Below are positions 2,198-63,484 of a stretch of 64,000 bases of DNA, in pieces. The DNA comes from Streptomyces cadmiisoli (GTDB taxonomy: Bacteria > Actinomycetota > Actinomycetes > Streptomycetales > Streptomycetaceae), in contig NZ_CP030073.1 in the NCBI RefSeq assembly GCF_003261055.1, positions 8,184,001 through 8,248,000 of the forward strand, read 5' to 3'. The position numbers were made by a program, and so were the translations under genes. The notes under the pieces are model-generated. The model saw only the letters and a list, made by a program, of their open reading frames with translations, was not told the origin of the DNA and searched no databases. Numbering within the stretch: the stretch's first letter is position 1; every line of letters begins with the position of its first letter.

Positions 2198-2824
2198 CTA
2201 TTCGTCGGTCGTTTCGGTGTGGCCCTGTTCGATGCCCCGGCGCAGGCGGTGCAGGCCGCGGCGGGCGTGGCTCTTGACGGTGCCGAGGGGCATTCCGGTG
2301 CGTTCCGCGATCTGGGCCTGGGTCAGGTCCTCGTAGAAGGCCAGACACAGCACCTGCCGTTGTTGCCGCGGCAGCCGGGACAGCCTGTCCACCAGGAGGA
2401 CCCGGTCGAGGACCCCGTCCGGCGCCGCTCCGTCGGGTGGCGGCGCGTACGGGCCGTGTGCCACCGATTCGATCAGCGCGAGGCGTCTCGTCCTGGCGGC
2501 CAGCGCGTCGACGATCTTGCGTCGGGTGATTCCGACGAGCCAGGCGCCGAGCGGGCCGCGCTCCGGGCGGTAGCCGTCCCTGCCGCGCCAGGCTCCGAGG
2601 AACACCTGCTGGGTCACGTCCTCGGCCTCGTAGGTGTCGCCGAGCGACCGGGTGGCCATGGTGTGGACCAGCGACCCCCATTGGCGGTAGATCGCCGCGA
2701 ACGCCTCTTCGTCGGCGGCCCGCAGGCCGCGGCCCAACTCGTCCTCGTACCGCGACGCTTCGGCGGGTGGGGACCCGGCGGTCGGTGCGAGGGCCGAAGG
2801 GGAGGTCAGCGTGTTCGTGCTCAT
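2198..2824 (-). CDS. litS: ECF RNA polymerase sigma factor LitS (light-induced carotenogenesis)
   Basis: 208 residues with an ECF sigma region 2 (about residues 35-105; D-E-E-A-F-A-A-I-Y, then Y-E-A-E-D-V-T-Q-Q-V-F at the core-binding helix) and region 4 (about 140-200; helix-turn-helix with L-T-Q-A-Q-I-A-E-R-T and G-T-V-K-S-H-A-R-R-G). A longer upstream frame exists, but the ATG at 2824 has an AGGAGAAA ribosome binding site and starts just before the conserved part. In Streptomyces coelicolor the divergent litR-litS pair switches on carotenoid genes in light; LitS is the sigma factor that transcribes them. The identical arrangement here, with the crt genes next door, supports the name. Probable targets are the promoters annotated at 2913, 5682, 14201 and 15846. 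Confidence 0.88.
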   Translation of the reverse strand: MSTNTLTSPSALAPTAGSPPAEASRYEDELGRGLRAADEEAFAAIYRQWGSLVHTMATRSLGDTYEAEDVTQQVFLGAWRGRDGYRPERGPLGAWLVGITRRKIVDALAARTRRLALIESVAHGPYAPPPDGAAPDGVLDRVLLVDRLSRLPRQQRQVLCLAFYEDLTQAQIAERTGMPLGTVKSHARRGLHRLRRGIEQGHTETTDE

Positions 2825-2912: not shown

Positions 2913-2940
2913 GCATCCAGTTTTGGACGCACAAACGACG
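2913..2940 (+). promoter_or_regulatory. putative LitS-dependent promoter of litR
   Basis: GCATCC (2913-2918), a 16-base spacer, then ACGACG (2935-2940). The same hexamer and spacing, followed by NNGA, precede crtY, crtE and the photolyase gene. The predicted start near 2947 lies inside the 2926-2966 inverted repeat. The motif is my inference from comparing the four regions. Confidence 0.5.
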
Positions 2941-2966
2941 CACACAACATGCGTCGTTTGTGCGTC
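2926..2966. promoter_or_regulatory. LitR operator: 17-bp perfect inverted repeat between litS and litR
   Basis: Arms 2926-2942 (GACGCACAAACGACGCA) and 2950-2966 are perfect reverse complements with a 7-base spacer. It is the most symmetrical site in the litS-litR divergent region and covers the predicted -10 and start of the litR promoter. LitR/CarH-type regulators are known to bind repeated half-sites in such divergent promoters and to repress in the dark. The assignment to LitR is by position. Confidence 0.75.
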
Positions 2967-2979
2967 GTACGCTCGGCAC

Positions 2980-3975
2980 GTGGAAGTGAGCCGAGACGAC
3001 GGCGACGAGGACACCCGGCGCGGCGGCGGGCTGACGACCGGCGAGGTGGCCAGACGGCTCGGCGTGGCGCCGACCACGATCCGTACCTGGGACCGCCGCT
3101 ACGGCCTCGGCCCCGACGCGCACACCGGCGGCCGGCACCGCCGCTGGACGGCGGCCGACGTGGCGCGGCTGGAACGCATGTGCGCCCTGACGGCGACCGG
3201 TCTGCCGCCCGCCGAGGCCGCGCGCCTGGCACGCAGCGAAAGGCCGCTCGACCCGGAACGGGCACGCCGGAGCGCGGCGCCGCCGTCACGATCACCGGTC
3301 GGCGAACGCGGCCGGCTCGGCGGCGGCCTGCGCATGGGCGATGTGCGTCAGGAGTGCAAGGGTGTCGCCCGTGCCGCGCTGCGCCTCGACGCCGTCGCGC
3401 TGGACGAGCTCCTGGTGGCCGCGATCGAGGAGCACGGGCTGGTCGCCGCCTGGACGGAGGTGATCATGCCGACGCTGCAGGCGGTCGGCCGCAAGTGGGA
3501 GAGCTCGGGCGAGAGATACGTCGAGGTCGAGCACTTCCTGTCCTGGCACGTGTCCGGTGCCATGCGGCGCTGCGCCCCGCCCGTGGCCGCCGACCGGTCG
3601 GGTGTCGGCGTCGTGCTCGCCTGCGTGCCGGGCGAGAACCACACACTGGCACTGGAGGCGCTGGCCGCCGCGCTGGCCGAACGCGGCGTTCCGGTGCGCA
3701 TGTTCGGCGGCGCGCTGCCCGTCGAGTCGCTGGTCGCGGCGGTGCGCAGGACCGGGCCGGCCGCGGTGGGACTGTGGGCGCAGTCCCGCACCACGGCGAG
3801 CCGGCCGCTGGCTCAGCACGTGGCGGGCATCGAGTGGGGCGTACGCGGTGCCCGGAGGAAGCCGGTGGTCCTGACGCTGGGGCCCGGCTGGGCGGGGCAG
3901 TCGGTGTCGGGGCTGCCCCGCCCACCGGGTCTGGCCGAGGCCGTCCAGGCCGTGGAGTCCATCGCGCCGGGGTGA
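2980..3975 (+). CDS. litR: LitR: MerR-family cobalamin-binding light regulator
   Basis: 331 residues from GTG 2980. Residues 18-85 form a MerR-type winged helix (T-T-G-E-V-A-R-R-L-G-V-A-P-T-T-I-R-T-W-D-R-R-Y-G-L). Residues about 120-330 match the four-helix light-sensing and cobalamin-binding domains of CarH/LitR: Trp173, the Glu184-His185 pair and the axial-ligand region G-E-N-H with His221. In CarH, adenosylcobalamin assembles a dark-state tetramer on DNA and light breaks it. The Trp-to-Glu-His spacing is ten residues here, one more than the W-x9-E-H signature I know from CarH, and the usual E-x-H-x-x-G ends in Ala. No good ribosome binding site precedes 2980, so the start could be a few codons off. 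It is divergent from litS. Confidence 0.88.
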   Translation: MEVSRDDGDEDTRRGGGLTTGEVARRLGVAPTTIRTWDRRYGLGPDAHTGGRHRRWTAADVARLERMCALTATGLPPAEAARLARSERPLDPERARRSAAPPSRSPVGERGRLGGGLRMGDVRQECKGVARAALRLDAVALDELLVAAIEEHGLVAAWTEVIMPTLQAVGRKWESSGERYVEVEHFLSWHVSGAMRRCAPPVAADRSGVGVVLACVPGENHTLALEALAAALAERGVPVRMFGGALPVESLVAAVRRTGPAAVGLWAQSRTTASRPLAQHVAGIEWGVRGARRKPVVLTLGPGWAGQSVSGLPRPPGLAEAVQAVESIAPG

Positions 3976-4393
3976 TCGGCCGGCCCCGACCCGCCACTGC
4001 GGTGGGCAGGTTGCCGGCGTCGCCGGACGTATGGCGCGCGGCCGGGCGGATCCGTCGGACGCCGGTACGGCCTGTGCGCGGACGGTTCCGTCGACGAGTG
4101 CCGCCCCGCCGGAGGGACGGACCCCGCACGGCGGCGGGCTCCGCCCGACGAGCGCCGAGACACCCGCGCGTGCCCGCCCGGCACGCCCGCCCACTCCCGC
4201 ATGACCCGGCTTGTGTCACGCCGGTCCGTCCCCGCCCGGCCCGCCCCGCATCACACCCTCCATGCCCGGGTGACAGGCCGAGGAAGCGGCCGCGCCTACG
4301 GCGAGTCGGGTGGGCCACGTCGAGCGTCGGGCGAGCCGGACGGTCTGCTTCCAGCCCTCGGTGTACAGGTGATCGGGTCGATGGAGGAGGAAC
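3976..4393. other. 418-bp intergenic region between litR and litQ
   Basis: No coding sequence, terminator or tRNA is convincing here. A degenerate LitS-like element (GCATCA at 4248-4253, 16 bases, then GTGACA) is the only match to the locus motif and is weak. litQ has its own strong ribosome binding site at the right edge (GGAGGAGGAAC). Confidence 0.4.
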
Positions 4394-5641
4394 ATGACCG
4401 TTCATCACCGCGAGGGCCCGGACACCGTCGTCGTCGGAGCGGGTCTCGCCGGCCTCGCGTGCGCGCTGGACCTGAGCCGTGCGGGACGGCGCGTCGCCCT
4501 GCTGGAGGCGTCCGACGGCGTGGGTGGCCGTATGCGCACGGACCGCCGGGACGGGTTCCTGCTCGATCGCGGGTTCCAGGTGTTCAACACCGCGTACCCC
4601 CAGGTCAAGCGGCGGGTGGACCTTCGGCGTCTGCGTCTGCGGCCCTTCACCCCCGGCTACGTGGTCCAGCACGGCACCGGGCCGCTGCGGCTGGCCGACC
4701 CGACCAGACGGCCGGGCTGGGCCGGCTCACTGCTCACGGGCAAGGCCCTGCCGGCCCGGGACCTGGCGGCCATGGCCGCGCTCACCGCACGGGACGCCCT
4801 GGTGCCCGCGGACTTCCTCAAGCGACGCCCGGACGACTCCACCGCCGCTTCCCTGTCCCGCGCGGGGGTGTCCGCCGCGACCGTCGACCGCGTCCTGCGG
4901 CCCTTCCTGTCCGGCGTGTTCCTGGAGGACCGGCTGGAGACCTCCGCCCGCTTCTTCCATCTGGTCTGGCGGAGCATGGTCAGAGGGACGGTCTGTCTGC
5001 CCGGCGACGGCATCGGCGCGGTACCGGCCCAGCTCGCCGACGGCCTGCCCGACGGTGTCCTGCGGCTGGAGGCTCCCGTCGCCGCGCTGACCGCGTCGGG
5101 AGTGCTCCTGACGGACGGTGCCGAACTGCCGGCGGCGACGGTGGTCGTGGCGACGGACGCCGCCACGGCGGCCCGCCTGCTGCCGGGACTGTCCGTGCCG
5201 GACAGCCGTACGGTCACCACGTACTACCACGCCGCCGAACGCAGTCCGCTCGCGGAACCGACGCTCGTGGTGGACGGATCAGGCACCGTACTGAACACCT
5301 GTGTCCTGACCGAAGCCGTTCCCGCGTGTGCACCGCCCGGTACCGCGCTCGTCTCGACCTCCGTGCTTGGCGCGGGCCGGGCCGGTGCGGGCGAGACGGT
5401 GCTGCGGCGCCTGGCCGAGCTGTACGAGACCGACACGAGCGGCTGGCAGCAGGTGGCCGTCCGCACCGTGGCGGGCGCACTGCCCGTCATGGTGCCGCCG
5501 TGGCCGCTGAGCCGCACCACCCGGTTCGGCCCGGGCAGATACGTGTGCGGTGATCACCGGGCGACCGGTTCGGTGCAGGGCGCGCTGGCGTCGGGCGCGC
5601 GAGCCGCGCGGGAAGTTCTGACCGACCTGGCGCGCCGATGA
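4394..5641 (+). CDS. litQ: LitQ: FAD-dependent NAD(P)-binding oxidoreductase
   Basis: 415 residues. The N terminus carries the dinucleotide-binding motif V-V-G-A-G-L-A-G-L (about residues 13-21) and continues with L-L-E-A-S-D-G-V-G-G-R, the signature of amine oxidase/phytoene-desaturase-like flavoproteins. The C-terminal FAD-binding stretch (Y-V-C-G-D-H-R-A-T-G-S-V-Q-G-A-L-A-S-G) is also intact. The ATG follows GGAGGAGGAAC. Genes of this type sit beside litR in the S. coelicolor carotenoid locus and are called litQ; the substrate is not known to me. A redox role on a carotenoid or on the light-sensing side is possible. The stop codon overlaps an ATG (ATGA at 5638) that opens the small frame leading into crtY. 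Confidence 0.82.
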   Translation: MTVHHREGPDTVVVGAGLAGLACALDLSRAGRRVALLEASDGVGGRMRTDRRDGFLLDRGFQVFNTAYPQVKRRVDLRRLRLRPFTPGYVVQHGTGPLRLADPTRRPGWAGSLLTGKALPARDLAAMAALTARDALVPADFLKRRPDDSTAASLSRAGVSAATVDRVLRPFLSGVFLEDRLETSARFFHLVWRSMVRGTVCLPGDGIGAVPAQLADGLPDGVLRLEAPVAALTASGVLLTDGAELPAATVVVATDAATAARLLPGLSVPDSRTVTTYYHAAERSPLAEPTLVVDGSGTVLNTCVLTEAVPACAPPGTALVSTSVLGAGRAGAGETVLRRLAELYETDTSGWQQVAVRTVAGALPVMVPPWPLSRTTRFGPGRYVCGDHRATGSVQGALASGARAAREVLTDLARR

Positions 5642-5681
5642 GGCAGCACCGGCCGATCCTGGTCCGCGCGCGTCCCGGCCT

Positions 5682-5709
5682 GCATCCGTACGTCGTCGGT
5701 GGACCGAAA
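5682..5709 (+). promoter_or_regulatory. putative LitS-dependent promoter of the crtYTU operon
   Basis: GCATCC (5682-5687), 16 bases, CCGAAA (5704-5709). The predicted transcription start falls at or next to the ATG at 5716, which would make the following small frame leaderless. Same architecture as the litR, crtE and photolyase promoters. Confidence 0.5.
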
Positions 5710-5715
5710 CAGACC

Positions 5716-5901
5716 ATGGACGCGGAAGCAGCACCGACCCCCGAGATACGAGGCCTACATCCGGAGCCAGGCGTGGAGACCGACGGACCACAGGTGCGCG
5801 TGGCCGGCGCCACCGGCGTACGTGACAGAGCCCTCACTGCGGACCCCGTCCGCTCGACACCCGACGGCGCGGGCCCCCCGATCGAACGGCGGGCCCGATG
5901 A
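5716..5901 (+). CDS. candidate leader ORF coupled to crtY
   Basis: 61 residues from ATG 5716, or 87 if started at the ATG 5638 that overlaps the litQ stop. The stop codon overlaps the crtY start as ATGA. The ATG at 5716 lies six bases after the predicted -10 element, the position expected for a leaderless message. The product is Pro/Gly/Arg-rich, has no recognisable domain and may have no function beyond carrying ribosomes to crtY. It could equally be an untranslated leader that happens to stay open. Confidence 0.3.
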   Translation: MDAEAAPTPEIRGLHPEPGVETDGPQVRVAGATGVRDRALTADPVRSTPDGAGPPIERRAR

Positions 5902-7133
5902 GCCGACGCGACACGTCCCAGCACGGCACCTCCGACGTGGCCATCGTGGGTGGCGGCGCGGCCGGACTCAGCCTCGCACACCGGCTGGCGCGGTCCGGCA
6001 CCCACACCGTGACCTTGGTGGACGCGCCGGACGGTCCGCTGCGGCCGCCCGAACGCACCTGGTGCTACTGGGACCGGGGCGCGGGCGACCTGGAGGAGGC
6101 GATCAGCGCTTCCTGGTCCCGGTTGCGTGTGCACGGCGCCGACGGCGGCGACGTCACGGTCGAACCGGAGCCCCTGCGCTACTACATGCTGCGGTCCGCG
6201 CGGTTCGAGCGGCTGGTGCACTCCCGGCTGGCCGAGGCGCCCGGAGCGCGCGTGGTGCGCGCCACGGTGCACGCGGTGCGCAGCGTGGCGGGCGGAGCGG
6301 AGATCCGCTGTTCGGGCCACGACGGCCGGAAGCTGACCCTGCGTGCCCGCCGCGTGTTCGACTCCCGCCCCCTGACGGTGCTGCCGCCGGCCAGGACGCT
6401 GCTGCTCCAGCACTTCCGAGGGTGGTTCGTGCGTACCGCCGCTGACCGGTTCGATCCCGCGGTGGCCGATCTCATGGACTTCCGCGTACCGCAGCCCGGC
6501 CACGGCCTCGCCTTCGGTTACGTCCTTCCCCTGGCGCCGGACCGGGCGCTCGTCGAGTACACCGAGTTCTCGCGCCGGCCACTGGGCACCGCGGCGTACG
6601 AGGCGGCCCTCGGCCACTACAGCCGCAAGATCCTCAACCTCGGCGAGTTCACCGTGCAAGCGGTGGAGCAAGGCGTCATCCCCATGACGGACGCGCGCTT
6701 CCCGAACCACCTCGGCCCGGGCGTCTTCCGGATCGGGACGGCGGGCGGCGCCACCCGCCCGGCGACGGGCTACACCTTCGCCGCGGTGCAGCGGCACAGC
6801 GGGGCCATCGCCGCCGCGTTGCGGAAGGGGCGCGCCGCCATGCCCCGACCGCACGGTCGCCGGGCGCTGGCCATGGACGCGGTGCTGCTGCGGGCCCTGG
6901 ACACCGGCCGGATCGACGGCCCCGACTTCTTCACCGGGCTGTTCCGCCACACGCCCCCGGAACGGCTGCTGCGCTTCCTCGACGGCGGCACCACACCGTG
7001 GGAGGAGTGGGGCATCGGACTGCGCACCCCGCTCGGCCCCATGCTGCGGACGGCCGTCGAGCTTCCCTTCCTGCCCCGCCGATCCCACGGCCCGACCGGC
7101 ATCGAACCCCGACACCGAGAGAGCTCTCGATGA
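5898..7133 (+). CDS. crtY: lycopene beta-cyclase CrtY
   Basis: 411 residues. It has the N-terminal FAD/NAD-binding motif V-A-I-V-G-G-G-A-A-G-L (about residues 14-24), R-T-W-C-Y-W-D near residue 55 and the C-terminal cyclase motif I-G-T-A-G-G-A-T-R-P-A-T-G-Y-T-F, all characteristic of CrtY/CrtL lycopene cyclases. The enzyme closes both ends of lycopene to beta-ionone rings, giving beta-carotene, at the membrane face. The start overlaps the preceding small frame by ATGA and its stop overlaps crtT by ATGA, so crtY-crtT-crtU should be one translationally coupled operon driven by the promoter at 5682. Confidence 0.93.
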   Translation: MSRRDTSQHGTSDVAIVGGGAAGLSLAHRLARSGTHTVTLVDAPDGPLRPPERTWCYWDRGAGDLEEAISASWSRLRVHGADGGDVTVEPEPLRYYMLRSARFERLVHSRLAEAPGARVVRATVHAVRSVAGGAEIRCSGHDGRKLTLRARRVFDSRPLTVLPPARTLLLQHFRGWFVRTAADRFDPAVADLMDFRVPQPGHGLAFGYVLPLAPDRALVEYTEFSRRPLGTAAYEAALGHYSRKILNLGEFTVQAVEQGVIPMTDARFPNHLGPGVFRIGTAGGATRPATGYTFAAVQRHSGAIAAALRKGRAAMPRPHGRRALAMDAVLLRALDTGRIDGPDFFTGLFRHTPPERLLRFLDGGTTPWEEWGIGLRTPLGPMLRTAVELPFLPRRSHGPTGIEPRHRESSR

Positions 7134-7858
7134 CATTGCTGCGCGACCACGAACTGGCACGCGCCTTCGACCACGCCTCACACACCTACGACCGCCTCAC
7201 CTCCCTCAACCCCGGATACCGCACCGACCTGCTGCGCTCGGCGCGCCGGCTCCGGCTGCCCGGCGACGGCGCGGATCTGCACGTGCTCGACCTCGGCTGC
7301 GGCACCGGCGCGTCCACCCGGGCCCTGCTGCGAGTCGCACCCCGCGCCCGCATCACCGGAGTCGACGCCTCGCCGGGGATGCTGCGGCGCGCACTGGCCA
7401 AGCCGTGGCCCGCGCGCGTGCGCTTCCTGCACCTCACCGCGGAGGATGTCGCGACGGCCGGCGAAGGCCCCTTCGACGCGGTCTTCGCGGCCTACCTGTT
7501 CCGCAACGTCGCCGACCCGGACCGTGTGCTGGAGACCGTACGAGCCCTGCTGCGCCCCGGCGGAAGACTCGCCGTGCACGAGTACAGCCTCAGCGGCTCG
7601 GCCGTGCACCGGGCGCTGTGGACGGCCGTGTGCCGGGGGGTGATCATTCCGGCCGGCACCGTCAGCGGCGACCGCGGCCTGTACCGCCATCTGTGGCGCA
7701 GTGTCCTCGCCTTCGACACCGCCCCCGTCTTCGCGGACCGTATGAGGCGGGCGGGCTTCACGGGCGTGCGTGCGGCCCCCGTCGCCGGATGGCAGACGGG
7801 CATCGTGCACACCTTCCTCGCCCGCAACGGCTCCGGCCCGACGGACTGCGTCCGGTGA
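7130..7858 (+). CDS. crtT: CrtT: SAM-dependent methyltransferase of the carotenoid locus
   Basis: 242 residues. The class I methyltransferase motif I is V-L-D-L-G-C-G-T-G-A (near residue 48), motif II ends in G-V-D-A-S-P-G-M-L, and F-D-A-V-F-A-A-Y-L-F-R-N-V resembles UbiE/COQ5-type enzymes, followed by L-R-P-G-G-R-L-A. The start at ATG 7130 overlaps crtY and the stop overlaps crtU (GTGA). The gene is a standard member of Streptomyces isorenieratene clusters, yet the pathway from beta-carotene to isorenieratene needs no added carbon because CrtU migrates a methyl group. Its substrate is therefore open; a quinone or a modified carotenoid is possible. Confidence 0.85.
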   Translation: MTLLRDHELARAFDHASHTYDRLTSLNPGYRTDLLRSARRLRLPGDGADLHVLDLGCGTGASTRALLRVAPRARITGVDASPGMLRRALAKPWPARVRFLHLTAEDVATAGEGPFDAVFAAYLFRNVADPDRVLETVRALLRPGGRLAVHEYSLSGSAVHRALWTAVCRGVIIPAGTVSGDRGLYRHLWRSVLAFDTAPVFADRMRRAGFTGVRAAPVAGWQTGIVHTFLARNGSGPTDCVR

Positions 7859-9405
7859 GCGCCGGGCAGCCCACCGCCCGGCGGGGCCGCGATCGCCGGG
7901 CCGAGGTCCTGATGCCGGCACCCGGCCGGGACCGGTTCGGCCGGGCGGACGCTCCGGGCGTCGCCGTGGTCGGCGGAGGCATCGCCGGACTCGCCGCGGC
8001 GACCCTGCTGGCCGAACGCGGAGCCCGCGTGACGCTCTACGAACGCGAGGACGCGCTCGGCGGCCGGCTCACCGGCCGACGCACCCGCCTGGCCGACGGC
8101 TCCGAGGTCACCATGAGCCGGGGGTTCCATGCCTTCTTCCGCCAGTACTACAACCTGCGCGGCCTGCTGCGGCGCACCGACCCCGCGCTCACCCGGCTGA
8201 CCGCCCTGCCCGACTACCCGCTGCGGCACAGCGGCGGCCTCACCGACAGCTTCGCCCGCGTCCCGCGCACACCGCCGTTCAGCGCGCTCGGATTCGTCGC
8301 CCTGAGTCCCACCTTCGGCTGGCGCGACCTCACCACGATGGACGCCCGGGCGGCGCTGCCGCTCCTCGACGTCCGCGTGCCCGACGTCTACGCACGTTTC
8401 GACGACGTCAGCGCCACCGCCTTCCTCCGGCAGGTCCGCTTCCCCGAGGCCGCGCACCATCTGGCCTTCGAGGTCTTCTCGCGCAGCTTCTTCGCCGACC
8501 CCCGGGAACTGTCCGCCGCCGAACTGCTGCTGATGTTCCACATCTACTTCCTCGGCTCCGCCGAGGGCCTGCTGTTCGACGTGCCGAACGACCCCTTTCC
8601 GCAGGCGTTGTGGGAACCGCTCGGCGACTACCTCCGGCGCCTCGGGGCCGACGTCCGCACCGGCACCCGCGTGCGGGGTGTTCACGCTGTCGACGGAGGG
8701 GGAGCGGAGGTGCGCACCGACACGGCCGTGGAACGCCACGACGCGGCGGTCCTCGCCCTCGACCCCGGTGCCCTGCAACAGGTCGTCGCCGCGTCGCCCG
8801 GCCTGGGAACCGCCGCCTGGCGCGACGACGTCGCCGCCCTGCGCACCGCCCCGCCGTTCCTCGTCTCCCGGCTCTGGCTCGACCGGCCGGTACGAGCCGA
8901 CCGGCCCGGCTTCCTCGGCACCAGCGGCTACGGCGGCCTGGACAACATCAGTGTCCTGGAACGCTACGAGGGGGAGGCCGCCCGATGGGCCGCGCGCACC
9001 GGGGGGTCGGTGGTCGAGCTGCACGCGTACGCCGTCACCGCCGGCGACCGGGAGGCCGTGCAGGACGAGATCGTCGACCGCATGCGCCAGGTGTACCCCG
9101 AGACGCGCGAGGCCGGGATCGTCGACGCCCGGCACGAGTGGCGCTCCGACTGCCCGCTGTTCCCTGTCGGTTCCCATCACCGGCGCCCCACCGTACGGAC
9201 TCCCCATCCCCAGCTGACGCTCGCCGGTGACGCGATCCGCTGCGACCTCCCGGTGGCGCTGATGGAACGTGCCGCGACCACCGGCTTCCTGGCGGCCAAC
9301 GCCCTGCTCGCCGACCGGGGCGTGCGCGGTCAGGTGTTGTGGACGGTGCCCCGGGCGGGCCGGTCCCGCGGTCTGCGGGCACTCGCCGCACGCGCGGGAC
9401 GCTGA
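7855..9405 (+). CDS. crtU: CrtU: beta-carotene desaturase/methyl-migrating aromatase
   Basis: 516 residues from GTG 7855, chosen because it overlaps the crtT stop (GTGA). After a basic N-terminal extension of about 35 residues the FAD motif V-A-V-V-G-G-G-I-A-G-L-A-A-A begins, followed by L-Y-E-R-E-D-A-L-G-G-R-L and, at the C-terminal end, L-T-L-A-G-D-A-I-R-C-D-L-P-V-A-L-M-E-R-A. This is the CrtI-like family whose CrtU members desaturate the beta-ionone rings and move a methyl group, turning beta-carotene into beta-isorenieratene and isorenieratene. It is last in crtYTU and converges on the minus-strand crtEIB operon. Confidence 0.9.
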   Translation: MSAGQPTARRGRDRRAEVLMPAPGRDRFGRADAPGVAVVGGGIAGLAAATLLAERGARVTLYEREDALGGRLTGRRTRLADGSEVTMSRGFHAFFRQYYNLRGLLRRTDPALTRLTALPDYPLRHSGGLTDSFARVPRTPPFSALGFVALSPTFGWRDLTTMDARAALPLLDVRVPDVYARFDDVSATAFLRQVRFPEAAHHLAFEVFSRSFFADPRELSAAELLLMFHIYFLGSAEGLLFDVPNDPFPQALWEPLGDYLRRLGADVRTGTRVRGVHAVDGGGAEVRTDTAVERHDAAVLALDPGALQQVVAASPGLGTAAWRDDVAALRTAPPFLVSRLWLDRPVRADRPGFLGTSGYGGLDNISVLERYEGEAARWAARTGGSVVELHAYAVTAGDREAVQDEIVDRMRQVYPETREAGIVDARHEWRSDCPLFPVGSHHRRPTVRTPHPQLTLAGDAIRCDLPVALMERAATTGFLAANALLADRGVRGQVLWTVPRAGRSRGLRALAARAGR

Positions 9406-9410
9406 GGGCG

Positions 9411-9432
9411 CCGTGCGTGCCGGGCGGCACGG
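9411..9432. terminator. short hairpin between convergent crtU and the Rieske gene
   Basis: CCGTGC (9411-9416) pairs with GCACGG (9427-9432), and GTGCC/GGCAC pairing is an alternative fold of the same bases. It fills most of the 28-base gap between two convergent operons. The stem is short, so its strength is uncertain. Confidence 0.35.
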
Positions 9433-9433
9433 T

Positions 9434-10441
9434 TCACCCCGGGAACCGCCCCGTGCTGCGCAGCTCCCAGCGCCGTTCGGCGTAGGCCAGATCGTCCCGC
9501 CACAGCCGGCCGGCCGTCTGGCGCATCAGGGGTCGCAGCGCGGCGGCGGCCGCCCGGGCCCAGGCGAACCCCCGTCGGTCGGAGGCGGCGACCACCGCCT
9601 CGACGACGGCGGTCCTCGGCTGCTCGTCCGCCGGGCCGGTCAGCGGCGTGGCATGGGTCTCCACCACGGAGGTCGACCCCTCGCCCTCGGTGACGCGCAT
9701 CACGACCGTACGCGGTTCGGGCGCGGTGAACTCGGCCCGCACCGGCACCACCAGACGGCTCGTCACCCGGAAGGAGACGTCCACGACGAACGCGTCGTCG
9801 GTGTCCCCCTGCGGTGTCCGGACCACGGTCAGGTCGACGAACGAGTACGGATGGAACCACGACCCGTGCCAGGGATCGAGCCGGTTGGCGACGATGTCCT
9901 GCGGCTCGCACCGCCCCACCGCCGTGAACACGGCGTCCACCCCGCTGCCCGCCGCGGGGCGCTCCGGCACCATCGGCCGCTCGGTCGGCTCCTCGGCGCC
10001 GACGGCGTCCAGCCGCACCCACACCAGCACGCCGTCGTCGTGGACGGGATACGGATCCCACCCGGCGAACGGGGCGCCGTCCAGCGCCAGTCCGTGCCAG
10101 TGGCACACCAGCGTGCCGCACACCACCCGGCTGTCCCGCAGGGGCGCACCGAGGTGCGGGCAGGCGCCCGGACCGGCGTGCAAGGCCCCGGTGTCCGAGC
10201 GCCACAGCACGATCTCGACGCCGCCGACCGTCCTGCCGTACGGGCGGCCTCCCGCGCGGACGTCCCGGGAGGCGCCCACCACGAACCAGTTTCCGGACGG
10301 ACGTGCCGACGCCCGCTTCAACGCGTCCGCGATCAGCGACGGGCGGGCCTCACGCCAGGTCGGTGTCTGCGTCGCCCAGTCCGGCCGGCGGCGGCGCCGC
10401 AACGGTGACGTCCAGCCGCCCCGGTCCGCTCGGTCGGTCAT
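9434..10441 (-). CDS. Rieske [2Fe-2S] domain protein (DUF5914-like) of the carotenoid operon
   Basis: 335 residues. Residues about 55-140 form a Rieske domain with C-P-H-L-G and, 15 residues on, C-H-W-H-G, giving the two Cys and two His ligands of a [2Fe-2S] cluster. The remaining 200 residues (with [12 protein letters not shown] near residue 175) look like a START/ring-hydroxylase-like fold of the type listed as DUF5914; no clear 2-His-1-carboxylate mononuclear iron site is obvious to me. ATG 10441 overlaps the crtB stop as ATGA, so it is the fourth gene of crtE-crtI-crtB-x, the slot called crtV in Streptomyces clusters. It may pass electrons to or hydroxylate a carotenoid, which is not established. 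Confidence 0.78.
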
Positions 10442-11433
10442 CGCGCGGGTCCCTTCCACTGGAGTACCGCGCCGCCCGCCGTCGGCGCCGGGCCCTCCAC
10501 GCGCGCGCGGTAACGCGCCCGCAGGACCTGGGCGGCCCCGGCGGCGGCCGTGACGGCGCGCCGACGACGCGACACCACGGCACGCCGGTGCAGGACGGCG
10601 TAGTCCTGGTCCGCGACGGCGTCGAGAATGCCGCTGTACAGCGTGTACGCGGTGCGGATGCAGGGGCGCACCCGAGGGTCCAGCATGTCGATGCCGGCCT
10701 CCGCCTCCCCGTACACCCGCCGGGTCAGCGCCTCGGCGGCGACGAGCGCGGCGCGGACCCGCGGATCCCGGCGCCCGGTGCGGCGGCTCCACTCCAGCAG
10801 CGGCCGGTCCACGCCGTGGGCGGCGAGCAGGTCCGCCGGCAGGTAGACCCGGCCCCGGTCCAGGTCCTCGCCGACGTCCCGTAGGAAGTTGGTGAGCTGG
10901 AAGGCGACGCCGAGAGCCGCCGCGTGCGGCGCCGCGACCTCACGGGGCACGACCGTACCGAGCACCGGCAGCATCTGCAGTCCGATCGCCGCGGCCGAGC
11001 CGTGCATGTAGGCGCACAGGTCGGCGTACGTCGGATAGTCGGTGACCGTCAGATCGGCGCGCATCGAGGCGAGGAAGTCGGCGAACAGCGAGTGCTCGAT
11101 CCCGTACCGGGCCGCGGTGTCGGCCACAGCCCGGACCACGGGCTCGTCGCCTGTGCCGGTACGCAGTCCGTGCGCGAGGTCGCTCTCCAGACACCGAAGC
11201 AGCCGGTCGCGCTCACCGGGTGTGCCGCGCCGGCCGAGATCGTCCACGATGTCGTCCGCCCAGCGGGCGAAGCCGTACAGCGCGTGCACGGCCGAGCGGC
11301 GTTCCAACGGCAGGAGGCGGGTGGCCAGGAAGTACGTCCTGCCGTGGCGGGCGTTGAGTTCCCGGCACCTGGTGTAGGCGGCGCGGAGCGCGGGTTCGGT
11401 GATGTCGGCGGCGTCCAGTTCACGACGGGTCAT
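10438..11433 (-). CDS. crtB: phytoene synthase CrtB
   Basis: 331 residues. Both aspartate-rich motifs for binding diphosphate via magnesium are present: D-D-I-V-D (near residue 65) and N-F-L-R-D-V-G-E-D (near residue 185), together with Y-G-F-A-R-W-A-D and R-G-R-V-Y-L-P. The enzyme joins two geranylgeranyl diphosphates head to head into phytoene. ATG 11433 lies inside the end of crtI (14-base overlap). It is the third gene of the crtE-crtI-crtB operon, transcribed from the promoter near 14174-14201. Confidence 0.94.
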
Positions 11434-12991
11434 CGGCGGTCTCCGCGGTCGGGGTGGCGGCGATTCTCGCGGCCGCCGGAGCGGGCCGGACGCGCGAGGC
11501 ACGGCGCCGGATGCCGCCGGTGACCCGTGCGGCCGCGAGTTTGCCGCTGATCAGCACGGGCGGAACGCCCACTCCGGGGGTGGTCCCGCATCCCGCCAGT
11601 ACGACGTTGTCCAGCCCGCGTACGAGATTGCGCGGACGGAACGGCCCGGTCTGGGCGAACGTGTGCGACACCGAGAACGGGCTGCCCGCCGCGTGTCCCT
11701 GTGCCGTCCAGTCCAGGGGCGTCACCAGCATCTCCTCCTGGACGCTGTCCGCGAATCCCGCCAGGCCCCGGCGCTCCAACTCGGCGACCAGGCCGTCCCG
11801 GTAGCGCGGACCGAGATCACGCCAGGCTCCCGCGGATGGTCCGACAGCGGTGTTCGGGCAGGGAGCCAGGACGTAGTGCAGGTGCCGGCCCTGCGGGGCC
11901 AGGGCGGGATCGTGTGCCGTCGGCCGGGTGATCAGCAGGGACGGGTCGCTCATCAGCCGGCCCGAGCGGGTGAGTTCGTCGAAGGTGCGCTCCCACGCCG
12001 CGCCGAAGGAGAGCGTGTGGTGGGCCAGACCGGGCCAGGTGCGGTCGGTCCCGGCGTGCAGGATCACCGCGGACGGCGAGTGACGCAACCGCACCGGACG
12101 CCGCGGAGCGCGCCCCAGGAGGCGGTGGGAGGCGGACAGTTCACAGGTCAGCACGACCGTGTCGCAGGGGATCCGCTCGCCCGAGGCGAGGCGTACGGCC
12201 CGGACCCGGCCCGCCGACCGTTCCAGCGCCTCCGCGGCCGCCGACCACCGGAACTCGGCTCCGGCGTCCGCGGCGGCGTCGGCCATGGCGCGGGGCAGCG
12301 CGTACATGCCGCCCTTGGGGAACCAGACGCCCGCCACCGTGTCCATGTAGGCGATCACCGCGTAGGCCGCGAGTGCCCGGGCCGGTGCGACACCGGCGTA
12401 AAGGGACTGGAAGGAGAACACCCGGCGCAGACGGGCGTCCGTGAGGAAGCGGCCGATACGGCTGTCGAGCCGCCCGAATCCGCCCAGCGCCGCCAGACGC
12501 GCGAGGTCAGGGTGCAGGAGTTGGAGGGGCGAGTCGAAGTTCGTGTCGATGAAGCGGCGCATCTGCGCCCGGTAGAGCCGCTCCAGCCAGTGCCGCAGCG
12601 CACGGTAGCCCGCGGCCTCGGCGGGGCCGGCGAATCGCCGGACCTCGGCCTCCATGGCCTCACCGTCCGTATGCACGTCCAGCGAGGTCCCGTCCGCGAA
12701 ACACGCCCGGTAGGCCGGGTGCAGGGCCATCAGGTCCACCCGGCGGGCCAGGCTGTCGCCGACGGCCGCGAAGGCCTCGTCGGCCAGCTCAGGCATGGTC
12801 AGCACGGTCGGGCCGGTGTCCACCTGGAATCCGCCGAGCCGCGTCCGGCCGGCCCGGCCGCCAGGGCCGGCGTCGCGTTCGACGACCACGACCTGCCGTC
12901 CCGCTCCGAGCAGATGAAGCGCGCAGGCGAGGCCCGACAGCCCGGCTCCCACCACCACGACACGGTCGGTCGGCCCGGTCACCGTCCTCAC
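11420..12991 (-). CDS. crtI: phytoene desaturase CrtI
   Basis: 523 residues, typical of bacterial CrtI. The N terminus has [14 protein letters not shown] with the downstream acidic residue in [14 protein letters not shown], and the C terminus has the FAD motif [16 protein letters not shown]. CrtI performs successive desaturations from phytoene to lycopene at the membrane. The GTG at 12991 overlaps the crtE stop as GTGA. The last 35 residues are Arg/Ala/Pro-rich and not part of the conserved core. Confidence 0.94.
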
Positions 12992-14130
12992 ACGTCCTCC
13001 CCGGTGAGGTCCGGGGCGGCGCCCGAGGCCCGCTCGACGAGCGAGGCGAACTCCTGTCGTACGGCGTGGCTCGCGCCGGCCCGGTCGAAGTGCCGCAGGC
13101 CGGCGGCCGCCAGGTCCGCGATCTTCGACTCCACCACGGACCGGGCGCCGGTTCGTTCGAGCGCCGCCCGCATGCGCTCCACGGTGTCGTCCGACCGGGA
13201 CACCTCACCCGGGGCGAGCACGGCGGCGGCCTCCTCGTCGCCGGTCGCCTCGGCGAGCCGTACGGCGACCGCGAGCAGATAGGTCAGCTTGCGCGTCCGC
13301 AGGTCGTCGCCGACCGGCTTGCCCGTCAGGGCCGGGTCCCCGAAGGCGCCGAGGAGGTCGTCGCGCAGTTGGAAGGCCAGCCCCGCGCAGCGGCCGGCGG
13401 AGCGGAGCGCCGCAAGGGCGTAGTCGTCGCCGCCGGCCAGCGACGCGCCCAGCGCCAGGGGCCGCTCCACCGTGTACAGGGCGCTCTTGAGCGTGGCGAT
13501 CGTCAGCGCCTCGTCGACCCCGGAAGAGCCGGTCGCCTGGGCGTGGATGTCGCGGTACTGGCCCGCGACCATCTCGCCGCGCATCGCCCGCCATTCGTGG
13601 TACAGCCGCGAACCGTGCGGCGACCCGAGCGCGGTCTCCGTCAGCAGATCGTCGGCCCAGGCCAGTGCCAGGTCACCGGCGAGCACGGCGACGGCGGTCG
13701 CGAACGCTTCGGGCGGGCCCGTCATCCGCGCGGCGCGGTGCATACGGGCGAGGTCGACGTGCATCGTCGGTGCGCCCCGCCGCAGCGTCGATCCGTCCAT
13801 CACGTCGTCGTGCAGGAGAGCGCACGCCTGCACCAGTTCCAGGGCCGCGCCCGTGCGGAGTACCGCAGTGGCGTCGCCGGTGCCTCCGGCCGCCCGCCAT
13901 CCGCACCACACGAACGCCGTCCGCAGCCGCTTCCCTCCGCGCCGGACGAACGCGGCGACACGGCCGGCCACGTCCCGGGCGAACACCGGGTCCACCTCGC
14001 GGGCCTGGCACAGTCCCGCGTCGAGTACCTGCTCCAGGAGTGCTCCGACGGTCCTGGTGGCACCGAGGGCCGTGAGCGGGTCGCCGACGCGTCCGGCCGG
14101 TTCGGCCGCAGTGGGCCGCAGTCCGAGCAT
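12988..14130 (-). CDS. crtE: geranylgeranyl diphosphate synthase CrtE
   Basis: 380 residues from ATG 14130, chosen for the AAGGGG about ten bases upstream; a longer frame to 14244 is less likely. It carries the first aspartate-rich motif L-L-H-D-D-V-M-D (near residue 105), G-G-K-R-L-R for diphosphate binding, and the second motif F-Q-L-R-D-D-L-L-G near residue 250. Polyprenyl synthases of this type elongate farnesyl or dimethylallyl diphosphate to C20 for carotenoids. It is the first gene of the minus-strand operon crtE-crtI-crtB-Rieske, and all junctions overlap. Confidence 0.93.
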   Translation of the reverse strand: MLGLRPTAAEPAGRVGDPLTALGATRTVGALLEQVLDAGLCQAREVDPVFARDVAGRVAAFVRRGGKRLRTAFVWCGWRAAGGTGDATAVLRTGAALELVQACALLHDDVMDGSTLRRGAPTMHVDLARMHRAARMTGPPEAFATAVAVLAGDLALAWADDLLTETALGSPHGSRLYHEWRAMRGEMVAGQYRDIHAQATGSSGVDEALTIATLKSALYTVERPLALGASLAGGDDYALAALRSAGRCAGLAFQLRDDLLGAFGDPALTGKPVGDDLRTRKLTYLLAVAVRLAEATGDEEAAAVLAPGEVSRSDDTVERMRAALERTGARSVVESKIADLAAAGLRHFDRAGASHAVRQEFASLVERASGAAPDLTGEDV

Positions 14131-14173
14131 GCACAACCACCCCTTCTCACTCTCGGTCACCTGCACGCCAGTG

Positions 14174-14201
14174 CTTCCGCCACCGGACCGGATCTGGATG
14201 C
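14174..14201 (-). promoter_or_regulatory. putative LitS-dependent promoter of the crtEIB operon
   Basis: On the minus strand GCATCC (14201-14196) is followed after 16 bases by CGGAAG (14179-14174). The predicted start near 14167 leaves a leader of roughly 37 bases before crtE. Same arrangement as at litR, crtY and the photolyase gene. Confidence 0.5.
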
Positions 14202-14253
14202 GCTGATTCCTGCCCGCTGCCGACCCTGTTGCCGGACCGCTCACCCCACCGGT

Positions 14254-15753
14254 CTAGGGAGGAGAGTCACCGCGATCACGCTCCTGGCGCCGGATCTCGT
14301 CGAGATCTTCGAGCCGGTCGAGTCCTCGCACCGCCTGCGCGGTGCGGTTGTTGTGCTCCAGCCTGGAACGGTGCCGGTCGAGGAAGGACCAGTAGCCCGC
14401 GCTGTAGGGGCAGGCATGTGCGCCGGTCCGGTCACCCGGCCGGTGGACGCAGTTGCCGCACAGATCGCTCATCCGGTTCACATAGGCACCGCCGGACGTG
14501 TACGGCTTGGTCGTCATACGGCCGCCGTCGGCGTACTGCGACATACCGACGACATTGGGCACCATCACCCAGTCGTAGCCGTCCACGAAGCTCCGGTGGA
14601 ACCAGTCCGTGACCGCGGCCGGGTCCCAGCCCTGCTGGAGGGCGTAACTGCCCAGGATCATCAGCCGCGGGATGTGGTGGGTCCAGCCGGTGTCGCGCAC
14701 CTGGGACAGGACGGTGTGCAGGCAGTTGGCGCGTACGTCGTCCGCGTCCAGTTCGTTCCACCAGCCGGGCAGCGGGGCGGTGTGCCGCAGCACGTTGGAC
14801 TGCCGGTACTCCTCGCCGAAGTACCAGTACAGCTGCCACACGTATTCACGCCAGCCCGCGATCTGCCGGACGAATCCCTCGACGCTGTTCAGCGGTGCCT
14901 GTCCCGCACGCCAGGCCGTCTCGGCCCGTTCGACGCACTCGGCCGGATCGAGCAGGCCGAGGTTGAGCGTGGACGACAGCAGGCTGTGACTCATGACCGG
15001 GTCGGCGGCGAGCATCGCGTCCTCGTACGGGCCGAACGAGGGCAGCCGGTGCTCGACGAAGCGCCGCAGCGCCGCCCGGGCCTCGGGGCGGGTCGCCGGG
15101 AACTGCCGGGGCCCGTCCTGCCCGACGAAGGACGCGTCGCCGTCCTTCTCCCAGCGGTCGAGGTCGCGGCGCACCTCGTCGTCGATCTCGTCCTCGCGCG
15201 GCCGGTAGGGAGCGGGCACGGGCAGGGTGGACGAGTTCCTCGGCGGGGCCTCCCGGTTGTCATGGTCGTAGTTCCACCGGCCGCCGGCCGGAGCGCCGCC
15301 GTCCATCAGCAGGTCGTGCCCCCGCCGCACCCACCGGTAGAAGGCCTCCTGACGCAGTTGCTTGCCGTCGTGGCCGTCCGCCCACGCCGCGAAGTCGGCC
15401 ATGGGCACCAGGAATCCGCGCGCCGGACACACGGTCACCTGAGGCAGTGAGCGCACCAGCCGCAGGGCGGCGTACGAGGTCGGATGGTGGACGGTCACCG
15501 GGCCGTCGCCCACCGCCCGCGCCAGGCCCTCCCGGTAGGTCTCGGCTCGGACGTACGTGACGCGGTCACCGAGTTCGGCGGCCCGGTGGCGCATGGCGGA
15601 GAGCACGAGGTGGGCCTTGGCCCGGTGGAAGCGTCTGCGCCGGAACACCGACCGTGCCTCGATCATCAGCAGCGGCGTGTCGCGGGTGATGCCGCTCTCC
15701 CCGGAGGGGCTCAGGAAGTGCGGTCCGAGCTGATCGCCGAACAGCCAGTGCAT
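14254..15753 (-). CDS. iron-sulfur photolyase/cryptochrome (FeS-BCP, (6-4) PhrB/CryB type)
   Basis: 499 residues. The N terminus H-W-L-F-G-D-Q-L-G-P-H-F opens the Rossmann-like photolyase domain; the helical FAD domain has W-R-E-Y-V-W and N-Y-D-H-D-N-R. Four cysteines expected to hold a [4Fe-4S] cluster are visible: one in A-N-C-L-H-T, two in L-C-G-N-C and one in A-C-P-Y. These define the bacterial (6-4) photolyase and proteobacterial-cryptochrome-like group rather than the classical CPD enzymes. The family repairs UV (6-4) photoproducts or senses blue light. Its location next to crtE, with a matching LitS-type promoter, fits co-induction of DNA repair and photoprotective pigment by light. 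The ribosome binding site is AGGA before ATG 15753. Confidence 0.88.
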   Translation of the reverse strand: MHWLFGDQLGPHFLSPSGESGITRDTPLLMIEARSVFRRRRFHRAKAHLVLSAMRHRAAELGDRVTYVRAETYREGLARAVGDGPVTVHHPTSYAALRLVRSLPQVTVCPARGFLVPMADFAAWADGHDGKQLRQEAFYRWVRRGHDLLMDGGAPAGGRWNYDHDNREAPPRNSSTLPVPAPYRPREDEIDDEVRRDLDRWEKDGDASFVGQDGPRQFPATRPEARAALRRFVEHRLPSFGPYEDAMLAADPVMSHSLLSSTLNLGLLDPAECVERAETAWRAGQAPLNSVEGFVRQIAGWREYVWQLYWYFGEEYRQSNVLRHTAPLPGWWNELDADDVRANCLHTVLSQVRDTGWTHHIPRLMILGSYALQQGWDPAAVTDWFHRSFVDGYDWVMVPNVVGMSQYADGGRMTTKPYTSGGAYVNRMSDLCGNCVHRPGDRTGAHACPYSAGYWSFLDRHRSRLEHNNRTAQAVRGLDRLEDLDEIRRQERDRGDSPP

Positions 15754-15818
15754 GCGGTGTTCCTCTTTCGGTGGCGCCGCGCGTGAGCCGCCTCCACCCG
15801 GCGGCCCTTACCCGTCCA

Positions 15819-15846
15819 CTTCCCGTCCGGCGCCATGTTCGGATGC
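15819..15846 (-). promoter_or_regulatory. putative LitS-dependent promoter of the photolyase gene
   Basis: Minus strand GCATCC (15846-15841), 16 bases, GGGAAG (15824-15819), about 66 bases before the photolyase ATG. It matches the crtE element (CGGAAG) closely in the second half. Confidence 0.5.
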
Positions 15847-15964: not shown

Positions 15965-18076
15965 CTACGCCGGTCGCCCCGGTCCCGGCACGGGGCCGAC
16001 GCCGTCGCGGGCCAGGGCACCGGGCCACCAGGCCCGGGGGCCGATGTCCATCACCAGCCCGGGCACCAGCAGCGAGCGGACCACGAGGGTGTCCAGCAGC
16101 ACACCGAAGGCCACGATGAACGCGATCTGCACCAGGAAGGCCAGCGGGATCACCATCAGGGCCGCGAACGTCGCCGCGAGCACCACACCGGCCGAGGTGA
16201 TGACTCCCCCCGTCGTGGTCAGACCGCGCAGCACACCCTGCCGCGTGCCGTGGACCAGTGCCTCCTCCCGTACCCGGGACATCAGGAAGATGTTGTAGTC
16301 GACGCCCAGCGCGACGAGGAACACGAATCCGTACAGCGGTACCGACGCGTCCGTGCCGCTGAATCCCAGGAGGTGTTGGAAGACGAGCGCCGAAACGCCC
16401 AGTGTGGCCAGGAAGTTGAGCGCCACGGTCGCCACCAGCAGGACCGGTACGAGCAGGGAGCGCAGCAGCAGGACCAGGATCAGCAGGATGATGCCGAGGA
16501 CAATCGGAATGATCAGGGTGCGGTCCAGTGCGGCGGTCCGCTGGGTGTCGAGCTGCTGGGCGCTGTACCCGCCGACCAGCGCGTTTGCCCCGGGGACGGC
16601 GTGCACGCTCGCCCGCAGCCGTTCGACGGTGTCCTTGGCCGCGTCGCTGTCCGCCGCGGGGCTCAGGGTGGCGTCGATGCGCGCGCGCCCGCCGACCACG
16701 AGCGGCTCGCCGGTGCCCTCGGGGCCCGAGGCGGCGACGGCCTCGGCCGCCGCGACACCCTCGGTGCTCTCCGCCGCCGCCGTGACCTGCGCGACGCGGT
16801 CGGCGTCGGTGATGATGACGGCCGGATTGCCGGATCCGCCGGGGAAATGCGCGCCGAGCGCTTCCTGGGCGGCGACGGAGGGCGCGTCGCCCACGAAGAT
16901 CTCGTCGAGCGGTACGCCCTTGCTGGACAGGGAGGGGGCGAAGGCCGCGAAAACGGCGAGGACGAGCGCGGTCACCAGCCACGTCCGGCGCGGTCTGCGG
17001 TCCACCGCGGCGGCGACCCTGCGCCACACCCCCCGACCCGCCGTGGACGGGTCCGCGGCCTTCGGCCGCGAGGGCCAGTGGGCGGCACGGCCCAGCAGGG
17101 CCAGTACGGCGGGCAGGAAGGTGAGCGTGGAGAGCACGGCGCACACGATGCCGATGGCGCCGACCGGGCCCAGGGCACGGTTGTTGGTGAGCCCGCTCGC
17201 GAGCAGGGCCAGCAGGCCGAGGGCAACGGTGGCGGCACTGGCCGTGATCGCGCCGAACGAGCGGCGTGTCGCCGCCACCGCGGCCGACGCCGGGTCCCCG
17301 CGCAGGGCGAGTTCCTCGCGGAAGCGTGCGGCGAGCAGCAGCGCGTAGTCGGTGGCGGCCCCGATCACCAGGATGGACAGGATGCCCTGCACCTGACCGT
17401 CGACCCTGACCACGTCCCGGTCCGCCAGCGCGTACACGATGGCGCAGGCGAGTGCCAGGGCCAGCACCGCGCCGAGGATGATCACGAACGGGAGCAGGAC
17501 GCTCCGGTGCACCAGGAGCAGGATCAGCAGCACGGCGCCGAGGGCGACGCCCAGCAGCAGTCCGTCGATGCCCGCGAACGCGTCCGAAAGATCGGCCTGG
17601 CTGGCCGCCGGACCCGCGATCCGGGCCGTGGCGCCCGGTACGCTCTGCGCCGCCCGACGCACCTGGTCCAAAACCGTGGGCAACTCCTCGCCCAGGTCGG
17701 GCTTCAGGAGGACGACCGCCTGCATGGCCTCACCGTCGTCGGAGACGCGAGCGGGTGACGGGCGGCCGACGACACCGGCTTCGCCGGCGAGCGCGCCCAC
17801 GGCGTCGGTGGCCGCTGCCCGCTGAGCCTCGGTGACCGGGTCCCCTTCCACCGTCCAGACCACGACGGCGGGCACGGTCTCGAACCGGTCGAACGCCTCA
17901 CGGGCTCTGAGCACCTTGGTGGATTCGGCGCTCTCGGGCAGGAAGGCCGCTTGGTCGTTGGTGGCCACCTCGCCCAGCTTGCCCGCATAGGGCCCGAGCG
18001 TTCCGCCCACGCCCAGCCAGACGAGGAGCAGTGCGAGAGGTATGAGCCACCGGGCCCAACTCGGTGCGGTTCTCAT
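15965..18076 (-). CDS. MMPL-family RND-type exporter
   Basis: 703 residues with two repeats of the MMPL architecture: one N-terminal transmembrane helix (about residues 11-28), an extracytoplasmic domain, a group of five to six helices (about 170-345), a second extracytoplasmic domain (400-510) and a final helix group (515-680). The helix-4 region A-T-D-Y-A-L-L-L-A-A-R-F-R-E-E and its duplicate G-V-D-Y-N-I-F-L-M-S-R-V-R-E-E carry the Asp-Tyr pair used for proton coupling in MmpL proteins. It probably exports a lipid, antibiotic or other hydrophobic compound. A MarR gene is transcribed divergently from a 73-base shared region and is the likely repressor. Confidence 0.88.
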   Translation of the reverse strand: MRTAPSWARWLIPLALLLVWLGVGGTLGPYAGKLGEVATNDQAAFLPESAESTKVLRAREAFDRFETVPAVVVWTVEGDPVTEAQRAAATDAVGALAGEAGVVGRPSPARVSDDGEAMQAVVLLKPDLGEELPTVLDQVRRAAQSVPGATARIAGPAASQADLSDAFAGIDGLLLGVALGAVLLILLLVHRSVLLPFVIILGAVLALALACAIVYALADRDVVRVDGQVQGILSILVIGAATDYALLLAARFREELALRGDPASAAVAATRRSFGAITASAATVALGLLALLASGLTNNRALGPVGAIGIVCAVLSTLTFLPAVLALLGRAAHWPSRPKAADPSTAGRGVWRRVAAAVDRRPRRTWLVTALVLAVFAAFAPSLSSKGVPLDEIFVGDAPSVAAQEALGAHFPGGSGNPAVIITDADRVAQVTAAAESTEGVAAAEAVAASGPEGTGEPLVVGGRARIDATLSPAADSDAAKDTVERLRASVHAVPGANALVGGYSAQQLDTQRTAALDRTLIIPIVLGIILLILVLLLRSLLVPVLLVATVALNFLATLGVSALVFQHLLGFSGTDASVPLYGFVFLVALGVDYNIFLMSRVREEALVHGTRQGVLRGLTTTGGVITSAGVVLAATFAALMVIPLAFLVQIAFIVAFGVLLDTLVVRSLLVPGLVMDIGPRAWWPGALARDGVGPVPGPGRPA

Positions 18077-18149: not shown

Positions 18150-18653
18150 ATGAGCGGTACCGGCACGCACTCGCCCTCTCTTCCCGGGAACGACCCCACG
18201 GGGTTGCAGTCCTTCGCTGTCCTGTTGCGCAGGATGAACGGCGAGTTCAACCGCATCGCCCAGGAGTTCGCCCAGGCGCAGGGCCTGCACCTCACCGATG
18301 TGCAGGCCCTGATGGCGATCCTGGACGCCGACGCGGACGGCGCGGACGAACCCGTCACGCCCGGCCGGCTGCGCAAACAGCTCAATCTGACGTCCGGCGC
18401 GATCACCGCCTGCCTGGACCGTCTGGAGAAGGCCGGCCACATCAGGCGCGTCCGGGCGACCGACGACCGCCGCGTGGTCCACCTGCACTACGCGGAGGCG
18501 GGCAGGAGCCTCGCCCGGGAGTACTTCCGCCCACTGGCCCGCAGCACGGACACGGCCCGCGGCCGCTTCACCCCGGACGAACTGGCGGTGGTCGTCCGCT
18601 TCCTCGCCGAGATGAACCGGGAACTGGTCCAGTTGCGGCAGGTGTCAACTTGA
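18150..18653 (+). CDS. MarR-family transcriptional regulator
   Basis: 167 residues. The winged-helix domain spans about residues 40-115, with the recognition region L-N-L-T-S-G-A-I-T-A-C-L-D-R-L-E-K-A-G-H-I-R-R and the wing R-A-T-D-D-R-R-V-V-H-L-H. These features are the standard MarR signature. It is divergent from the MMPL exporter and probably represses both; the inducing ligand is unknown. The ATG at 18150 sits directly after a TATACT -10 element and lacks a ribosome binding site. Confidence 0.85.
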   Translation: MSGTGTHSPSLPGNDPTGLQSFAVLLRRMNGEFNRIAQEFAQAQGLHLTDVQALMAILDADADGADEPVTPGRLRKQLNLTSGAITACLDRLEKAGHIRRVRATDDRRVVHLHYAEAGRSLAREYFRPLARSTDTARGRFTPDELAVVVRFLAEMNRELVQLRQVST

Positions 18654-63390: not shown

Positions 63391-63410
63391 GATGCTAGCA
63401 AATACGCATC
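63391..63410. promoter_or_regulatory. NsrR autoregulatory operator (GATGC-N10-GCATC)
   Basis: Plus strand GATGC (63391-63395) and GCATC (63406-63410) with a ten-base A/T-rich centre match the general NsrR box, GATGC-N9/10-GCATC, and overlap the -10 (TAGCAT on the minus strand) of nsrR. Confidence 0.65.
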
Positions 63411-63484
63411 CTGGATTCCTCTTTAAAGGGATGCCTGTACGGTGTGGGTCGCGTCACGCGCTCGTCCTCGACGGCGCGCCGTGC

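Follow-up and report, generated by a model that had tools for sequence, protein, structure and literature searches.

Light-induced carotenogenesis in Streptomyces coelicolor reportedly depends on LitR and LitS, as described by Takano et al. in 2005. SigK-type (ECF19) promoters have a consensus close to CCATCC-N16/17-CCGAAT, and the targets of SigK include fasciclin proteins. In the consulted portions of two papers, transcription of crtE in S. coelicolor is directed by LitS (PMC12705666, PMC5401885). A B12-based LitR also exists in Thermus thermophilus, where it controls LdrP, which activates the crt genes and the photolyase gene phrB (excerpts of PMC5401885). Light-inducible expression tools for Streptomyces have already been built on the crtE promoter (PMC12705666, in part). 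This use gives the crtE promoter element a practical value.

The stretch of Streptomyces cadmiisoli DNA analyzed here (the window; 64,000 nucleotides of a 10.2 Mb genome) carries a light locus of this kind. Its genes are named after published usage. The genes central to the analysis are the following:

2198-2824, minus strand: litS, ECF sigma factor, named by synteny and published usage
2980-3975, plus strand: litR, MerR-type regulator with B12-binding domains
5898-7133, plus strand: crtY, lycopene cyclase
12988-14130, minus strand: crtE, polyprenyl synthetase, heading the minus-strand crt set
14254-15753, minus strand: photolyase-related gene (DPRP), whose PDB relatives are of the FeS-type bacterial cryptochrome/(6-4) photolyase kind

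The divergent litR/litS pair, the crtE and crtY units and, as proposed here, the direction of crt by LitS are shared with S. coelicolor, but the photolyase and DUF4383 targets proposed below were not seen for that species in the portions consulted (PMC12705666, PMC5401885, PMC6295645). The LdrP regulon differs in its regulator, which is a CRP-family activator in T. thermophilus as opposed to the ECF sigma factor proposed here (PMC5401885, in part). In the window, a flavin oxidoreductase occupies the place of litQ, and crtT and crtU come after crtY. The minus strand of the locus encodes an MMPL gene, the photolyase-related gene, crtE, crtI, crtB and a Rieske/DUF5914 gene. The PDB matches of the photolyase-related protein are bacterial cryptochrome B and the (6-4) photolyase PhrB. 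LitR has both a MerR DNA-binding domain and B12-binding domains, the combination expected of a CarH/LitR B12 photoreceptor repressor. It matches PDB CarH with an E value of 4e-13 and scores 57 bits with the NCBIfam CarH model, whose cut-off is 400. The second-best NCBIfam model for LitS is SigK, and an equivalence of the two was rejected on the score of 103.5 bits against the 226 needed by this curated model. A MarR-family gene (18150-18653, plus strand) is divergent from the MMPL gene (15965-18076, minus strand), which lies directly upstream of the photolyase gene. Carotenoid loci of Corynebacterium relatives also contain MarR (CrtR) and mmpl genes (excerpts of PMC5401885).

The original prediction placed a common promoter motif, GCATCC-N16-NNGA, before litR, crtY, crtE and the photolyase gene. 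The hexamer, the 16-bp spacer and the G-A pair are present at all four sites, which are given here with the neighboring signals of litR:

2913-2940, plus strand: litR match, GCATCC ... ACGACG, matrix score 9.8, judged to be due to chance
2927-2965, no strand: inverted repeat between litS and litR (arms 2927-2942 and 2950-2965), a likely LitR operator
2968-2973, plus strand: TACGCT, TANNNT-type -10 of litR, 6 nt before the GTG at 2980, with a leaderless mRNA predicted
5682-5709, plus strand: crtY promoter element, -35 GCATCC (5682-5687) and -10 CCGAAA (5704-5709), score 21.3
14174-14201, minus strand: crtE promoter element, -35 GCATCC (14201-14196) and -10 CGGAAG (14179-14174), score 24.3
15819-15846, minus strand: probable photolyase promoter element, -35 GCATCC (15846-15841) and -10 GGGAAG (15824-15819), score 19.8

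The evidence from the window alone is modest and suggestive only. The loose motif occurs 7 times in the window against 2.73 expected, a number reached by 2 of 100 shuffles. The remaining three matches lie at 63.1-63.4 kb, and a palindrome-like stretch at 63406-63434 is matched on both strands. When the four intergenic regions, chosen afterwards, were shuffled, some common hexamer appeared in 436 of 2000 shuffles, and a common hexamer plus at least two fixed columns in the second hexamer in 12 of 2000. Leaving out litR, the three-site score was reached by 165 of 2000 shuffles of regions likewise chosen afterwards. The distances to the start codons were called plausible, which holds loosely, as the crtY site begins 216 nt before the crtY ATG. 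A 61-codon ORF (5716-5901, plus strand) begins 6 nt past the -10 of crtY and runs into the crtY start with an ATGA overlap. It was rejected as a leader ORF since the ORFs of relatives differ in position and sequence.

It is the comparison across species that decides, and it identifies the crtE and crtY sites as real, the photolyase site as probably real and the litR site as chance. A total of 80 crtY loci from Streptomyces or Kitasatospora records were compared. In 36 relatives litR-litS lies near crtY, giving 37 litRS loci with the window; crtE was usable in 34 of these, and the other three gave no crtE start. Within 300 bp upstream, GCATCC-N16-NNGAA precedes crtE in 34 of 34 loci and crtY in 26 of 37, and every one of these 60 sites has GAA in its -10. 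In 29 of the 34 loci, the crtE element begins 68 nt ahead of the start codon as placed by alignment. The exact motif before litR (1 of 34 loci) and before the photolyase gene (1 of 7) was found solely in the window. The exact crtY site is missing within 300 bp from 11 of the 37 loci, 2 of which attain the matrix cut-off when the range is widened to 600 bp. The G-A of the second half of the motif is thus as described, but NNGA is too loose, and the full element is GCATCC-N16-CSGAAR in the sequences compared.

A scoring matrix was built from 58 crt sites, leaving out the window (training minimum 17.3; cut-off 17). In litRS loci the cut-off is attained by 33 of 33 crtE regions and 25 of 36 crtY regions. 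It is attained by none of the regions before litR (0/33), litS (0/36), litQ (0/14), the photolyase gene in the relatives (0/6), crtT (0/30), crtI (0/33), crtB (0/33), the Rieske gene (0/34) or crtU (0/35). The matrix sets the crtE, crtY and window photolyase sites apart from litR and the other genes of litRS loci. Among loci lacking litRS, 7 of 23 crtE, 4 of 31 crtY and 1 of 31 crtI regions attain it.

The presence of the element follows litS. A LitS homologue is encoded elsewhere in the genome for 12 of the 31 longer loci that have no litRS nearby. Among genomes with litS, 40 of 44 have the crtE element and 30 of 49 the crtY element; among those without it, the figures are 3 of 13 (p 5e-6 for crtE) and 0 of 19 (p 1e-6 for crtY). 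As species are not independent, both p values are too small. The exceptions are three loci with a crtE site and no litS found (L041, L051, L062) and four with litS and no crtE site (L066, L072, L079, L081), the latter being 4 of the 10 genomes in which litS lies apart from crt. The shared promoter class proposed for crtE and crtY is therefore upheld, and its reading as LitS-type is favored because the element tracks LitS across species. The analysis shows the element, its conservation and its co-occurrence with litS; we infer that LitS recognizes GCATCC-N16-CSGAAR sites and that light induces these genes in this organism.

The signal is the position of the element before orthologous genes rather than its density. 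The loose motif has 254 matches in the whole genome. Twenty-four litS+ genomes together contain 97 matches to GCATCC-N16-CSGAAG and 24 litS- genomes contain 74, against 84 and 87 for a reversed control pattern (all summed by hand). The suggested use of the motif in genome-wide searches fails, with raw counts near background. Equal density in random DNA had been named as grounds for abandoning the motif; raw counts come close to this, but the conserved position before orthologous crt genes stands. GAAR-type sites number 21 in 10.2 Mb, including the photolyase site, and 18 lie outside the light locus; downstream ORFs were inspected for some of these 18. One strict LitS-type site in the same genome (G000:C1:9049534-9049561, minus strand) lies 88 nt before the start of a fasciclin-domain protein, and the two-block element is very similar to SigK-type promoters. 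The fasciclin gene was rejected as a LitS target, as a 16-bp-spaced site is present in 0 of 21 other homologue loci. One 17-bp-spaced match occurs elsewhere in one of the fasciclin homologue loci (L322).

We consider it likely that the light-induced ECF sigma factor LitS uses GCATCC-N16-CSGAAR as its promoter and that this element forms three promoters in the window, those of crtE, crtY and the photolyase gene, with litR standing apart. Upon illumination, the B12-dependent repressor LitR would leave its operator between litS and litR, and the release of LitR would allow litS to be expressed. RNA polymerase carrying LitS would then transcribe from the sites before crtE and crtY and, in this genome, from a separate photolyase promoter. 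The LitR-LitS-crt chain in this scheme comes from the published S. coelicolor work, as related in parts of two later papers. The litR gene itself would be transcribed from a TANNNT promoter adjoining the operator. TANNNT stands directly past the inverted repeat in 36 of 37 litRS loci, and the next ATG or GTG follows after 6 or 7 nt in 30 of those 36. This short distance suggests a leaderless litR mRNA made from a housekeeping-type promoter. The right half of the inverted repeat is well conserved across litRS loci and the left half less so. No LitS-type site was detected by the matrix before litS in the 36 relatives.

That all four sites, including that of litR, are LitS promoters is barely credible, even though their hexamer and spacing are identical and few shuffles do as well. 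The -10 half of the litR site scores -3.8; it reads GAC where the other sites have GAA, and it falls inside the inverted repeat that is the likely LitR operator. The total is far below the training minimum, no site is present in the other 33 litR regions of litRS loci, and the TANNNT promoter offers an alternative. The litR site was accordingly rejected as a LitS promoter and removed from the motif set. A different reader of a real element, such as a LitS paralogue acting as sigma factor or a bound regulator, is very unlikely. The genus commonly has LitS homologues of 50-60% identity as well as second copies, and three litS- genomes keep the crtE site, but the two blocks with fixed spacing are promoter-like, the element tracks litS, and control of the crtE promoter by LitS is published (PMC12705666, PMC5401885, each in part).

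The most serious alternative, although still improbable, accepts the crtE and crtY promoters and regards the photolyase site as chance, the gene being transcribed from some other promoter or by readthrough out of the MMPL gene that precedes it. It is favored by the absence of a site at that place in all six further litRS crt loci that include a photolyase gene, by the 165 of 2000 shuffles that equal the three-site agreement, and by the upstream DNA, which has no aligned relative. Among 150 relatives, the matches in 27 other genomes begin at most about 13 nt ahead of the start codon and offer no aligned promoter. None of 17 records in a plasmid search covered 80% of the query. In photolyase regions with no litRS nearby, 1 of 4 (L078) has a loose match, with GAC. 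Against chance, the site is one of very few GAAR-type sites in the genome, and its score is fully crt-like, equal to the 5% point of the training crt sites. Sites also occur before photolyase genes at a much higher rate than in random windows, and in litS+ genomes only.

This last comparison used 73 photolyase loci, drawn with the window from 72 of 83 other genomes that have a photolyase match, leaving out partial or split matches; a genome counts as litS+ if its LitS match has an E value of 1e-40 or lower. In the 350 bp upstream of the photolyase gene, 15 of 73 loci have a 16-bp-spaced site (11 on the same strand, 8 on the opposite strand); allowing spacers of 15-17 gives 11 and 10, respectively. 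Random 360-bp windows from the same loci contain a site in 303 of 14600 cases, crt sites included. All 15 loci, including the window, are among the 53 litS+ loci, and none among the 20 litS- loci (p 0.007, species not being independent). In 38 of the 53 litS+ loci there is no site within 350 bp upstream. Twelve of the 73 loci have a class I photolyase gene (phrB) upstream and in the same orientation, preceded by an SDR gene in 9. In 5 of the 12 the head gene upstream has a site 55-114 nt before it, and in 2 a divergent pair of sites lies about 1.1 kb before the SDR gene. Two litS+ (L199, L249) and three litS- loci have no site before the head, and three loci (L193, L196, L249) have an additional site 78-89 nt before phrB. 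The crt-like score, the restriction to litS+ genomes and the sites at operon heads make direct membership of the photolyase gene in the regulon, as originally proposed, probable. The gene is probably a LitS target here, though its site is not conserved at the exact place.

The opposite-strand sites of the photolyase loci pointed to a DUF4383 membrane protein (PF14325). Of the 43 homologue loci inspected, 12 have the element, which begins 35 or 36 nt ahead of the start codon. These 12 homologues all share 70% or more identity with the query; other homologues in that identity range have no element. Three further loci have it at -126 to -144. The distance from the -10 to the start codon is 7 nt, which implies a leaderless mRNA starting about 7-8 nt past the -10. 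By the threshold used, litS is present in 11 of the 12 genomes with the site, the exception being G067. The DUF4383 gene (E 1e-65 or better) is found in 52 of 295 genomes, and 45 of these 52 are litS+ against 97 of 243 others (p 4e-10, species again not being independent). The genome of the window has only a distant homologue (53%) with no site. The DUF4383 membrane protein is thus a predicted further member of the LitS regulon that is absent here. Four litS- genomes (G066, G115, G126, G127) have a DUF4383 homologue and a fasciclin gene no more than about 2 kb apart, with no LitS-type site at the start of the DUF4383 homologue. Genomes G029 and G072, equated with those of L066 and L081 by identical contig coordinates of their litS matches, have the DUF4383 site and lack the crtE site.

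In the consulted parts of the open-licence literature, no work was recognized that connects LitS with photolyase or DUF4383 in Streptomyces. Control of crt by LitS is already known; the removal of litR and the addition of GAA are corrections, and the photolyase and DUF4383 genes are a plausible extension. The gain is a sharper candidate consensus for LitS promoters, from which litR is excluded. With somewhat less assurance than for the promoter itself, we favor a view in which LitS controls a small photoprotection regulon beyond carotenoids. It would comprise the leaderless DUF4383 gene and photolyase genes, the latter either as DPRP by itself or together with SDR and phrB, and its members would turn over through their promoters. 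If this is true, light control in G029 and G072 would have shifted from pigment to a different output. DNA photorepair and the uncharacterized DUF4383 membrane family would then be linked to the B12 light sensor.
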